NCBI RefSeq assembly: GCF_000711695.1
Contig: NW_013546950.1
Coordinates: 32,119 to 96,118, forward strand
Reading direction: 5' to 3'
Length of the DNA: 64,000 nt
Source of the DNA: Tilletiaria anomala UBC 951
Lineage: Eukaryota; Basidiomycota; Exobasidiomycetes; Georgefischeriales; Tilletiariaceae
Shown: positions 3,021-10,102 of the stretch, piece by piece
Numbering within the stretch: the stretch's first letter is position 1
How the letters are laid out: every line of letters begins with the position of its first letter
Notes under the pieces: generated by a model
What the model was told of the DNA's origin: nothing
Database searches by the model: none
Seen by the model: the letters and a program-made list of their open reading frames with translations, nothing else
Made by a program: the position numbers and the translations under genes

Positions 3021-4446
3021 ATGCTGCGCTTGCTGACGACGAGACGAGGCGCCGTGATGACAAGAGGTATCACTGCAAGGTCGCAGGCGGGTACGGGACA
3101 AGGCGGCGTCACGACTGATGGGAATCTTCTGTTCAACCTCAGCGCCTTCATTTCTGGCGTGTACATGCTGGAGCGGGGCGCTGACTCCTTCCTTGACAAC
3201 CTCGCAGTGTTTGCAGGTCGCCTCAGAGTGAGCGAGACGCTCGTCGCGCTGCTGACTGCTGGTGCGGAATGGGAGGAGGTAAGCATGTCGCATAGCATCC
3301 CTATAGAATCTGTATTGCAAGAATACTCATCGTGGCGGCTGTCTGAAATGAACTTCTTGCGTGCAGCTGGTTGTCGTAGCTGCTGCAATGTTTGAGCGCA
3401 ACTCTGCATTGGCGTACGGCAACATCGTCGGGAGCTGCATCAGCAACATCCTTGGCGCTTTCTCACTCGGCCTGCTCTTCGCTGCACCGGGTCCGTCGAG
3501 GCACGCTGCTTCTTCTCTACTGGCTTATGGCAGCGCTGACGATCAAGCCGTAGCACCTAGACCACCTTCAACCACTGCCGGTGCATTCGACGGCAGCGCG
3601 CGGATCTGCGCCATCGCACAGTTCCTCTTCACTGTGCTGGCCTCGGCGCTACTCCTCTCGCCCACGCCATCAGCGAGAGCAAGGTTAATCAAAGGGACAC
3701 TTCTGTTGGCATTTTTTGCAGCGTACATGGGTGCAGCAGCGTGGGCAATCTACAGGGGTGTCCTCGCGGCTCCAGAGGGCAGCGACGACAGCAGCTCCAG
3801 CGAGAGCGGCAGCGGCAGCGACGCGTCATCAACCGATTCCCCCACTGGTACAGAGTTCCAAGCGCAGACAGCTTCTGTTGCTCCTGCAGACACGGACTGC
3901 GAGACAGCACCGCTGCTGCAGACGCGCTTTGTGCGCAGCTCGACAAGCGACTCGCTCGCTGGCGCCGTGCTACGCTCCTTTTTGAGGAGCACGGTAGCAT
4001 GCGCAGCGCGCATGCTCGTCGGCCTGCTGGCGCTCTCGCTGGCGGGGCTCGTGCTGTCGCACTCGGCCGCGGGCATCGCCTCGTCGCTCGGGCTCTCGCA
4101 GACCGCGTTTGGCCTGACGCTGCTGGGCGTGACGACAACGCTGCCAGAGAAGATGCTGGCGGTACTCGCAGGGCATAGGGGCAGCACCAGCGTGCTGGTA
4201 AGCGCCGCGGCGGGCAGCAACATGTTCCTGCTGACGCTGTGCGCTGGCGTCGCGGTGCTTGGTGAGGGGAACGGCACTGCCCCCGTCCCTGTCTCGAGGG
4301 TGTCGATGGCATGGATGCTGCTCTCGTCGGCGCTGCTGCTCGCAAGCGTCCTACACGGCCACCCGACGCGCTGGCAAGGCTGGCTGCTGCTTGTTCTGTA
4401 TGCCGTCTTCCTCGGCTCTTCCCTTGCAATGGATCTAGTGCGATGA
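3021..4446 (+). CDS. Sodium/calcium (cation) exchanger family membrane protein
   Basis: Two exons, 3021-3278 and 3367-4446, flank an 88-nt intron (GTAAGC...GTGCAG, phase 0) and encode 445 residues. The fold is that of CaCA-family exchangers, which move Ca2+ or other cations against Na+, K+ or H+: two alpha-repeat halves separated by an acidic Ser-rich loop of about 60 residues (SSSSESGSGSDASS). The second repeat is clear (FGLTLLGVTTTLPEKMLA, then AAAGSNMFLLTL). The first is degenerate: LVALLTAGAEWEELVV followed by GNIVGSCISNILGA, where GTSLPE and GNxxGSN are usual. About ten hydrophobic helices can be seen. No signal peptide is evident. Ion preference and membrane location cannot be read from the sequence. 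The start is the first ATG before the first helix; Met13 is an alternative. Confidence 0.75.
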
Positions 4447-5065: not shown

Positions 5066-8000
5066 ATGCCAACCGCCATCAACAGTGTCGCCGGTGAGTT
5101 CGGTTGTCGCTCGTGGTGGCTATGGTTGGCGCTGGCGCATCCTATGCACGCTTATCGCGGCGATGCGGTGCTGCGCAGAGGAAGGGCGATACTCTGGCCC
5201 GACAGGTTGAGCTTGATGCTGACGACTCACTTCGTTGCGTGCTTCACTGCCACGCGCCTCTTCAGAGCTCGACGCGACCCTCGCCTCCGCGGGAGGCAAG
5301 ATGGTCGTGATCGATTTCCACGCGACATGTGAGTCTGGCGGCGCACATCGCGTGACTCTCTGCTTGCTGTCATCGCTGCCCCGCTGCCCGCTGATACGTA
5401 TTCCCTCCACTCGACACGTGCAGGGTGTGGCCCTTGCCACGCGATCGCACCAATCTACGATCGGCTCGCCTCGCAGTACGCCAGCGACATCTTCCTCAAA
5501 GTCGACGTCGACCGCGTGCCGGACATTGCGCAGCGATATAGCGTCACCGCCATGCCCACCTTTATTTTTATCAAGAACAAGGCCCCCGTCGAAACACTGC
5601 GCGGCGCGAACCCGCAGCAGCTGCAGGTGCTCTGCCAGAAGCACTCTGGCGGCGCGTCCGGCAGTGGAGCCTTCAGCGGAAATGGTCAGAGCCTCTCGGG
5701 AGGCAGCGGCAGCAGTACTAGTGGCAGTGGCAGTGGCGCCGGGGGCGTCAATGCGCCAAATGTACGTCTTGAAAACCTCCTGCCTCTGCTCATCCTTGGC
5801 GGCTACGTGCTTTACGTCCTCTGCAGCAAAAGCTGAGAGGGGGCGTGGCGTGCGGCGCTCGCCGTGGGTTGGGGTATGCAATTTGGAATGATATTGCTTT
5901 GTCTTTCCCCCTTTGCTCGCCTTGTGATTTCTATAGCACTCGGTGCTGACTTCCTCCTTGTCTTGCCTCGGACCTGTCTCCTTGCTTTGCAGAAATCGCT
6001 CCTCTCGCAGATCGACCAATCGCGCTCGCTAGCTCTCAACGAACAATCCGCGCACCCGCTCAAGAGCATCATCAAGGGCCCCAGTGGCGACTCGTACCTC
6101 GCGTCGGACGCTGATGAGCAGCTGCTCATCCAGCTCGCGTTCAGCCAGAAGGTCCGCATCTCGCACATCCTCCTGCACACCACGCCTTCGGCCGCCGCAC
6201 AGGCACCCAAGCGCATCAAGCTCTACGTCAACCAGCCCAACCTCGGATTCGACGATATCGACGACGGCGGCTCGACCGCACCGGCGCAGGAGCTCGAGCT
6301 GGCCGAGGACGACGTCAAGAGTGGGCCCAGCGGCGGCGGGGGGCGCGCGGTGCCGCTCAAGTTTGTCAAGTTCCAGAACGTCGACTCTCTCGCCATCGCC
6401 GTCGTCGCCAACCAGGGCGGCGAGGAGACGACGCGCATCGACGCACTGGACATCTATGGCGTTGCAATGGAGGGTATGAATATGGGCGAGCTGAAGAAGA
6501 TCGAGGCCGAGGCTGAGCCTCGCGGCTGGAACGGGCGCCTGCCGTCGCGCACGGGTCTCAAAGGCGGCTCGGGCGGCGCAACGCCACGATACTATGCCCC
6601 AGGCTTTGCCGGTGGCCACCACGGCTGCGCTAAAGGCGGTGCTGCTGCTGCGACGCTCTCGCCTGACCGCTCGCGCACCTCGGCCGAGACGGACGCTTCG
6701 CATGCATCCACACCTACCGCCTATGGGCACTCGTTGAACGGTGCGGGGGGTGGCGGTGGCGTCACAGGCCACAGGCGTCGCAGCAGCACGTCCACGTCGC
6801 GCACGAGCATCCCCACGAGCTTCGCGGACGATGAGGAGGAGATCGAGCGCGCGTTCAAGCCGATGGCGCCGCCGCGCTTCACGGCCAAGGACGAGGAGGA
6901 CCTGTTGATGCTCGGCGGCCGAGACCCGGCCGCTGCCGCCGGGGATGGCGCCGATGGTGCAATGGGCGATGGAGTCAGCTTGTTCAGCTGGCACACCGCC
7001 CCGCTCGCGCTCGCGCTCGCTCCGCCCCTCGGGGCACTGCTCGGCGCCAAGGCGGAGCACTGGAGCAATGCCATCTTGCTCTTCCTTGCTAGCTTTTGGC
7101 TGTATCAGTTCATCAGAGGTGAGTGCTAGCGGCTGGTTGCGAACGAATCCAAGTTGGTTTGCACAGCCCGCTCACCTCATGTACGTTTGTCAGTTCCATG
7201 GGACATGTACTACGCCGCGCGGACACGCAAGGTCCTGCATGCTGACATGGTTGCCGACGAGCAGCAGAATGAGACGCCGGAGCAGCGGCAGACGCGCTTG
7301 GCAGCGACGGCCGAGCTTCATCGCGCAGAGCTCGTCGCGCTCGTCTGGTGCATCGCCAGCCCCGTCGCTGGCGCCTGGCTGCTGCATTGGCTCCGAGAGA
7401 CGCTCACCGACGGCTCGGACTATCTGAACACCTTCAACATCCGCCTGTTCATGTTCTCTGCTGGCATCAAGCCGTGGATCCATGCGTTCAAGCTGATCCG
7501 CCGCCGCCTGCTTTTCCTGCAGGAAGAGGTGCACTATCCACACTCGCAGGTCGAGCAGCTCTCGCGCCGCCTGCGGCAGATGGAGGCGGAGATTTCGGCA
7601 TTGCGCAAGATCTTCGCGACCAAGGGTGACGTGCGCCTGCTACGCGACGGAATCGACACGCCACTGGCGCAGCTCAGCAGGGCCGTGCGCAAGTATGAGA
7701 AGAAGGAGGAGCACCTCCGCCTCAGCGCCGAGGATAAGTTCAATCTCGTCGAGAGCCGCCTTGAGGATCTCCTGCGCGAGGTCGCCATCAACGCCGAGCT
7801 CATTGAGGTCGAGCGCCGCGAACGCGAGCGCATCGCCAACTTGCCCATGTCCCTGTTCCAGGCCGTGCGCTATGCCTTGGGCCGCAGTGGCGCTGGCTCG
7901 TCGACGCAGCAGCACCACTACCTCCACGATGCCCCGCGAAGCTTGCCGTCCACCACAGCGCTCGGCATCGGGGATACCCAGGGTGGCTTGGGCAGCCCGA

Positions 8001-8488
8001 CTGGTTCGGGCTTCGTGCCGCTGCATCAGTACCCCGCTCCGCCTGGAAAGTCTGCGGGGCCGCCCATTGGGCCTAGCACCAGTACCAGCAACGGCAGCGC
8101 CGCCGCCGCCGGCAGTAGCGGCGCAAACAGTGCTAATGGTGGCCCTTCGCCGACCAGCAATGGAAGTTCTTTGCCAGAGATGTACCTGCACTCCATCCCG
8201 CTCTCGCCCAATTCGCGCTCGGCCCCCTGGTACGAGAGAGGGTCCATGTGGTATTTGTTCCGTGAGTCATGTATTTTCAACATCGGTGATTCACAGTCAT
8301 CGCATGTGCTGACATCCATTTCTCTTGCAGTGCCGCTCAACTTGACCAACTCGGCGCTGAAGCTCGCTGGAGACAAGGCTAAGAGCCTGACGGACGACAC
8401 TTACTACCAGCAGACGATGCAGCAAGCGCATCACCCCGCCTTTGTCGCCGCACAGCACAACTACAAACGCATCGATCACGCAAAGTGA
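5066..8488 (+). CDS. Thioredoxin-PITH protein fused in frame to a coiled-coil membrane protein
   Basis: Six exons (5066-5093, 5266-5328, 5424-5761, 5993-7118, 7194-8261, 8331-8488) join in frame into 926 residues. Residues 1-110 are a thioredoxin domain with the redox site WCGPC and cis-proline AMPTF; the codon for the active-site Trp is split by intron 2. A Gly/Ser linker follows. Residues 144-305 are a PITH domain (DADEQLLIQLAF, LELAEDDVKS, VPLKFVKFQNVDSL), together the TXNL1 architecture of a proteasome-associated thioredoxin. The frame then runs without a stop into a low-complexity stretch (RRRSSTSTSRTS, DDEEEIERAF), two or three membrane helices from about residue 470 (LALALAPPLGALLGA, ILLFLASFWLYQFIR), a helix ALVWCIASPVAGAWLL and a long charged coiled coil. 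That second half resembles a separate family of uncharacterised fungal membrane proteins. It may be a true fusion, or two genes sharing a frame, the second starting near ATG 6475. Confidence 0.7.
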
Positions 8489-8956: not shown

Positions 8957-10102
8957 TTATGCGGCTGGTGGTGCAGATTGGGCGTCTGCCGTCGCTGCCT
9001 CGGTTGATGGAGCAGCTGGCGATGATTTTGGACCTGCGGATTCGACGTCCCGTTGAGCGATCGCAGCTCCGATCGCACGCTTGGCAAGGTAGCCTCGCTT
9101 GTTGGGTGAAGCGTAGTATACTGACGAAGCAAAACGTTAGCAGGCGAGTACCTTTGGCCGTTGCTACAGCTTACTGCCACAAAGACTCACGTAAGTCTCG
9201 CTTCTTTGTTGGCTCTGCAGGCAGTGGGAGCAACTTGCCCTTCTCGATCCACTTGTGTGGCTTGACGAGCGCGGTCAGACTGAGGCGATTGTAGTACCTG
9301 CACTCGACGCTACCCCCTACGCGTTCAATGCCTTTAATAGCGCTTTGTGAAGCTTTGGAGACGATGAGGTTGATACGAGTCCGTAGGCGCGTCGCTCCGT
9401 CGGCGAGAATCTTGACGCCGTCTTTAACCTGATGGATGCAGCGGCTGTGAAGTAGTTCTGCGGCTGTTATGGGCTGGGCGGGATCTAACAGGCCCAGGTC
9501 TATCCAATACTGAATGCGGTCCAGGTTGACGGGTGCGTACTCATGGCCGTGACTTTCGAAGTAAGTAACACATTAGCACTGCATGAAACGCAAGGGTCGT
9601 CCAGTAAAGTGATTTGAGCACCTACATATTTGTAAAGCCTCTCTTTGGGAACCGACGCATGATCGGTGTTTGACCGCCCTCGAAGCCTGGCGTAGGCTTG
9701 CCATTGCCGGACCTTGCCTTCTGTCCCTTGTGTCCTCTTGTAGCGGTACCGCCCCTCCCTGACCCAGGACCACGACCCAGTCGTTTTCGCTTTACGACCG
9801 CAAAACGGTATGCGTCAGACTTGAAGGGGTAAGAGCGCAAAGAAAAAGGACGTGCTCACGTTCTTCGTCGGTACGGCTGGCTTCAAGTTGCCAAGGCTGA
9901 TGGGCCCCAGCGCTTCCGAAGCATATCCTCTCCGTTGAATTGGACCTTGTGAGAAAGCGAGGGTCATTCCAAGTGTCACCCGCGAAGTGCTGCCGATGGC
10001 GTGAGCAGCCTGAGCCGTGGCGGCAGTGGTGGCGGCGGCAAGGGCTCCCGACCCACTGCGCAGAGACAGCAGGCCGAGAGAGCGTGTGAGTGAGGCGGAC
10101 AT
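8957..10102 (-). CDS. MRPL10: Mitochondrial large-subunit ribosomal protein uL15m
   Basis: Four exons (10102-9860, 9789-9626, 9552-9191, 9120-8957) encode 310 residues. Three introns of about 70 nt have good donors and acceptors. The protein begins with a basic, Ser/Ala-rich, acid-free leader typical of mitochondrial import. The uL15 core follows: [20 protein letters not shown], then KSRSG-type KARSGNGK, then [20 protein letters not shown]. The mitochondrial continuation is [20 protein letters not shown]. It binds 23S-type rRNA in the mitochondrial large subunit. The exon-2 acceptor at 9790 was chosen because it puts KN directly before RKRLGRG; an earlier in-frame acceptor would leave a 40-nt intron, too short for this genome. 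The gene is divergent from PRP28, with 405 bp between the starts. Confidence 0.88.

Follow-up and report, generated by a model that had tools for sequence, protein, structure and literature searches.

At the gene level, the window, a stretch of 64,000 nucleotides from Tilletiaria anomala UBC 951, contains a gene of six exons that join in phase to encode 926 residues and a stop, with all five introns of the GT-AG type. Upstream of it lies a frame at 3352-4446 (+) that by eye we take to be cation-exchanger-like with multiple membrane segments, and downstream a frame at 9622-9855 (-) that, also by eye, is presumably ribosomal protein L15-like. The gene comprises:

5066..5093, + strand: exon 1, with the start codon of the 926-residue protein and an N-terminus like the MVKEVSSA..-type starts in Ustilaginales
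5266..5328, + strand: exon 2
5424..5761, + strand: exon 3, the remaining thioredoxin domain and a Ser/Gly linker with AFSGNGQSLSGG; tail-anchored thioredoxins have a similar linker motif
5426..5437, + strand: redox motif CGPC, read from the sequence
5762..5992, + strand: intron 3, 231 bases, donor GTACGT, the optional intron of the switch proposed below
5762..5836, + strand: in-frame transmembrane tail VRLENLLPLLILGGYVLYVLCSKS encoded by the intron, with its stop TGA
5993..7118, + strand: exon 4, PITH, linker and first hydrophobic segments
5993..6502, + strand: PITH domain, residues 144-313 (the Pfam match starts at residue 141, in exon 3)
6545..6571, + strand: junction motif SRTGLKGGS, in the form common to fused relatives
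6998..7118, + strand: two hydrophobic segments (residues 479-497 and 501-521) of the membrane partner, of which the latter extends into exon 5
7194..8261, + strand: exon 5, encoding a hydrophobic segment (565-583), long helices and a stretch of low confidence
8331..8488, + strand: exon 6, encoding the last part of the fused protein

The first-pass annotation had described six exons agreeing in phase over 926 residues, and its coordinates and phases proved right when the gene was rebuilt. Pfam places a thioredoxin domain at residues 12-97 (E 9.7e-23) and a PITH domain at residues 141-313 (E 7.7e-44); no Pfam family reaches the cut-off in the C-terminal half. In an AlphaFold2 model based on 34 sequences, thioredoxin and PITH are mostly predicted with a pLDDT of about 90 or above, most of the linker falls below 50 and much of the helical part lies between 70 and 90. 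The protein already deposited for this strain (P0001, 905 residues) matches the 622-residue C-terminal part at 100% and begins at an internal Met, lacking the first 21 residues that are supplied by exons 1 and 2. It is also worth mentioning that intron 5 (8262-8330, 69 bases) is in frame and free of stops, so its retention would add 23 residues rather than truncate the protein.

A second claim, that the frame passes the end of PITH without a stop or an intron, was equally borne out, as exon 4 contains the end of the domain (about 6502) as well as the first hydrophobic segment (6998), with no stop between them. The open linker alone is weak evidence for a fusion, because 486 of 5000 shuffles of 6518-6860 are open as well. 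G+C by codon position is 0.63, 0.72 and 0.75 in the linker versus 0.66, 0.39 and 0.86 in the PITH part, a pattern that gives no support for coding and a difference that a Gly/Ser/Ala-rich stretch might produce. The strong evidence is comparative. When 7997 candidates were scored with the C-terminal half, 50 partner relatives passed E 0.001 (own deposit included), of which 24 carry PITH and 15 of these 24 a thioredoxin label too. The motif [ST]GLKGG stands just after PITH in all 24 PITH-bearing proteins, as TGLKGG in 23 and as SGLKGG in P0012, whereas TGLKGG is absent from 26 of 26 partner relatives without a PITH label; a somewhat extended version of the motif occurs in 0 of 240 other proteins compared. 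The join to a second fungal membrane-protein family, also put forward in the first-pass annotation, is upheld by these counts, which support a conserved union of TXNL1 and a fungal membrane-type protein in one reading frame.

Both properties of the linker have to be weighed in favor of another arrangement, namely two overlapping transcription units in which a TXNL1 transcript is accompanied by a membrane-protein transcript starting inside exon 4, the fusion being a mere read-through frame. Internal ATGs are present, and in Tilletia, Exobasidium and others the partner is modelled as a protein on its own. Nevertheless, the 24 PITH-bearing protein models or raw frames run past PITH without exception and the junction motif is conserved, so this arrangement appears improbable, and a stand-alone partner transcript made alongside the fusion is possible. 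An annotation or assembly artefact joining neighbours might be suspected given that several relatives are draft gene models and that Testicularia P0020 and P0050 look wrong by eye; it is nonetheless very hard to sustain when the same join, with one motif, recurs in many independent records, and the conserved junction comes close to refuting it.

The fusion, real as sequence by this evidence, is not unique to Tilletiaria anomala. The fused form occurs, for instance, in Kalmanozyma, Pseudozyma hubeiensis, Ustilago, Sporisorium, Melanopsichium, Moesziomyces, Violaceomyces and Thecaphora (the Thecaphora model starts within the thioredoxin domain), and smut genomes carry it under labels that include 'related to TRX2 - thioredoxin II', 'PITH domain protein' and 'hypothetical protein'. 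Separate genes in relatives had been named beforehand as the finding that would speak against the join, and here the picture is divided: ten relatives without a PITH label, grouped as unfused on the basis of gene models, have the partner as a separate protein (eight of them being four of Tilletia plus Exobasidium, Ceraceosorus, Parajaminaea and Sympodiomycopsis), and others are fused. The fusion is therefore patchy. The partner tree (31 rows, 21 labelled and 10 unlabelled, row P0050 being only 19% filled) needs 2 changes between fused and unfused states with its deep branches unresolved, and a single fusion origin followed by losses is possible. In the PITH tree, the domains of 8 fused proteins form one clade (support 100/98) on the TXNL1 side, apart from the 2 other PITH loci of the Tilletiaria genome. 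A smut-type PITH-partner protein labelled Cichorium endivia, a plant (P0005), has the same sequence as Moesziomyces P0007 in the compared part of the junction, which suggests fungal contamination of that assembly. Collections of viral and bacterial contigs contained no fungal record of the locus; one viral-contig locus and 80 kept of 87 genome-contig loci matched, but only within residues 1-92, the thioredoxin part.

Regarding the partner itself, the Tilletiaria C-terminal half carries the conserved core blocks of an Ustilaginomycotina membrane/coiled-coil family when relatives are compared. It shares with members such as P0032 and P0031 the hydrophobic segments and the FNIRLF..KPW and LEDLLREVAINAELIE blocks, and differs in that these are stand-alone models while in Tilletiaria the partner is fused to PITH; within its own genome, P0032 matches (E 2.8e-90) at the fused locus only. 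When partner members were compared with Pfam, three families appeared, each in just 1 of 20 members. The partner model was of low confidence (mean pLDDT 56), and a fold search with it retrieved nothing at E 0.001 or below; the partner profile produced 6 weak matches among solved structures (FAM155A at E 0.0045, GCN4 coiled coils, prefoldin), which were dismissed as kin and taken as chance or coiled-coil likeness. Neither profile nor fold searches yielded a convincing solved relative or fold for the family.

A feature missed by the earlier reading lies in intron 3, which, if retained, would encode the tail anchor of a 167-residue thioredoxin. Beyond the exon 3 donor the reading frame remains open for 24 codons, adds VRLENLLPLLILGGYVLYVLCSKS and ends at a stop at 5834-5836, and this intron-retained form has one C-terminal transmembrane segment at residues 146-164 with a mean hydropathy of 1.78. 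Its tail is identical in 14 of 20 residues to that of an annotated tail-anchored thioredoxin from Tilletia maclaganii. A profile of six Ustilaginomycotina tail-anchored C-termini recovers the intron-3 frame at E 9.6e-12, against 0.35 for the runner-up among 1995 window frames; a second profile, built from 90 mostly agaric proteins, likewise ranks the frame first, but only at E 0.0082 with the next at 0.17. In pairwise comparisons the tail scored above all 2000 shuffles against 8 of 10 relatives (P0051, P0052, P0054, P0055, P0137, P0053, P0063 and P0056); against P0073 and P0136 it was not clearly better, as 70 and 664 of 2000 shuffles scored as high. The 167-residue form has 2454 relatives at E 0.001, and the best 120 of them, led by Tilletia, Parajaminaea and agarics, include 86 with a hydrophobic stretch near the C-terminus, defined as 17 residues of mean hydropathy above 1.6 inside the last 45. 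Among those same 120 no identical protein occurs, the best match reaching 50%. Intron 3 is otherwise normal, with GT-AG ends and a CTRAY box 47 bases before the intron end. Its donor reads GTACGT, presumably a weaker one than the GTGAGT of the other four introns, and these bases also code the first two residues of the tail, V-R.

The intron 3 tail could also be explained as an unused relic of an older tail-anchored thioredoxin gene merged with TXNL1, the 926-residue fusion then being the only product. In agreement with this, just the fused form is seen in the Tilletiaria anomala deposits searched with the C-terminal half, and the best 120 of 2454 relatives include no tail-anchored form from any species named as fused. 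Even so, this explanation seems unlikely: an unused intron should have lost the frame, the stop, the hydrophobicity and the identities with T. maclaganii, all of which the tail retains, and the Tilletiaria assembly yielded no further tail-anchored thioredoxin, ten additional matches to the 167-residue form all ending by residue 144. These own-genome searches scored the best candidates of one draft assembly of 18.4 Mb, in which the locus lies on contig C72, and such candidates yielded neither another TXNL1 nor another tail-anchored thioredoxin or partner gene. Three PITH loci were found, with thioredoxin exons at the fused locus only. The other two, on contigs C84 and C14, are presumably PITHD1-like as judged by eye, and neither contig has a thioredoxin match. 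No ordinary-size TXNL1 from a named Ustilaginomycotina species appeared among the best 120 of 457 matches.

In seven basidiomycete species, tail-anchored and PITH thioredoxins are only 35-51% identical over the main aligned stretch and are consequently different genes there, which rules out a single gene, shared by all basidiomycetes, that would give both proteins by alternative splicing. In a thioredoxin tree of 48 rows, one group unites the fused rows with the tail-anchored rows of Ustilaginomycotina (93/85, 14 rows, not starred), and Tilletiaria stands beside the tail-anchored P0063 (97/93). With constrained groups chosen after the tree was seen, forcing all tail-anchored rows into one clade gave p 0.008, joining all tail-anchored and fused rows gave p 0.0555, and one clade of fused rows gave p 0.036, a value that leans on P0063, a 133-residue frame overlapping in 63 columns. 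The Ustilaginomycotina thioredoxin may have come from either gene: in the tree it adjoins agaric TXNL1 (84/89), and linker and tail speak for the tail-anchored gene.

Taking these observations together, the favored explanation, with a probability of about two in three, is that one locus makes two membrane-bound thioredoxins sharing one thioredoxin domain by means of intron 3 splicing. Removal of intron 3 would produce the 926-residue protein, in which thioredoxin, PITH (in TXNL1 the domain that docks on the 26S proteasome) and a disordered linker are followed by the multi-helix membrane/coiled-coil partner, and this product would place a reductase together with a dock for the proteasome at the cytosolic face of a membrane. 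Retention of the intron, or a transcript ending within it, would instead yield the 167-residue tail-anchored thioredoxin without PITH, so that splicing of intron 3 would set where the thioredoxin sits. The frames and splice sites are read directly from the DNA, both products are conserved as sequence and no second copy was found in the assembly; we infer the production of both transcripts, membrane insertion and the membrane involved, proteasome binding and regulation of the choice. The membrane tether for a proteasome-linked thioredoxin suggested in the first-pass annotation follows from the parts as a candidate function, and represents only half of the coding potential of the locus because intron 3 also reads as the tail-anchored form. 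As for its history, it is reasonably probable that three genes (for a tail-anchored thioredoxin, a TXNL1 PITH and a membrane/coiled-coil protein) merged and turned into a splice switch decided by the intron 3 donor, Tilletia-type lineages retaining just the tail-anchored product alongside a separate partner, and Ustilaginales mainly the fused one. The locus would offer a candidate example of the products of two genes being kept through alternative splicing after a merger, as well as a natural case of a proteasome-docking reductase on a membrane protein.

Among known systems, TXNL1/TRP32 and Schizosaccharomyces pombe Txl1 share with the Tilletiaria protein a CGPC thioredoxin followed by a TXNL1-type PITH. 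The Tilletiaria protein differs in running about 600 residues beyond PITH, with membrane segments, and in having no free C-terminal tail or terminal His. Unfused TXNL1 relatives are 264-338 residues long (best 120 of 457), in a search that admits only about 178-565 residues, so longer relatives could not appear. The terminal His is absent in 39 of the 53 best-ranked unfused relatives and present in 50 of the best 120 of 457. By hand count on the alignment, human D162, R234, M275 and F278 correspond to Asp, Lys, Met and Leu in Tilletiaria, and E136, a proteasome contact in the human protein, to Leu. According to two reports, PITH of human TXNL1 lies against Rpn2, Rpn10 and Rpn11, with the C-terminal His (H289) reaching the Rpn11 zinc (PMC12700817, PMC12700798); fission yeast lacks the conserved tail (PMC12700817), and a tail extended past H289 destabilised TXNL1 in human cells in a proteasome-dependent, ubiquitin-independent manner (PMC12700798). 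The fused protein naturally carries an extended tail of this kind, and because of the destabilisation in human cells its C-terminus may alter or abolish normal docking. The best reading is a membrane-held dock that would present the reductase to membrane-derived substrates.

The second predicted product resembles basidiomycete tail-anchored thioredoxins of about 165 residues (e.g. P0051-P0060), for which no family name was found, in its thioredoxin domain, its AFSGxGQxL-type linker and its C-terminal hydrophobic tail. In seven species these are encoded by a gene apart from TXNL1, whereas the Tilletiaria tail lies inside an intron of a TXNL1-like gene. In the open-access literature no paper was found that links a tail-anchored thioredoxin to alternative splicing or intron retention, and titles and abstract openings on TXNL1/PITH, membrane-anchored thioredoxins and fungal isoforms contained no mention of the Tilletiaria fused gene. 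That one fungal gene can serve two locations through alternative splicing or stop read-through is known from the peroxisomal isoforms of Ustilago maydis. Both cases have in common one gene whose product location is set, or in Tilletiaria would be set, by alternative C-termini, the alternative being a peroxisomal signal in Ustilago maydis and, in Tilletiaria, a tail anchor versus PITH with its membrane partner.
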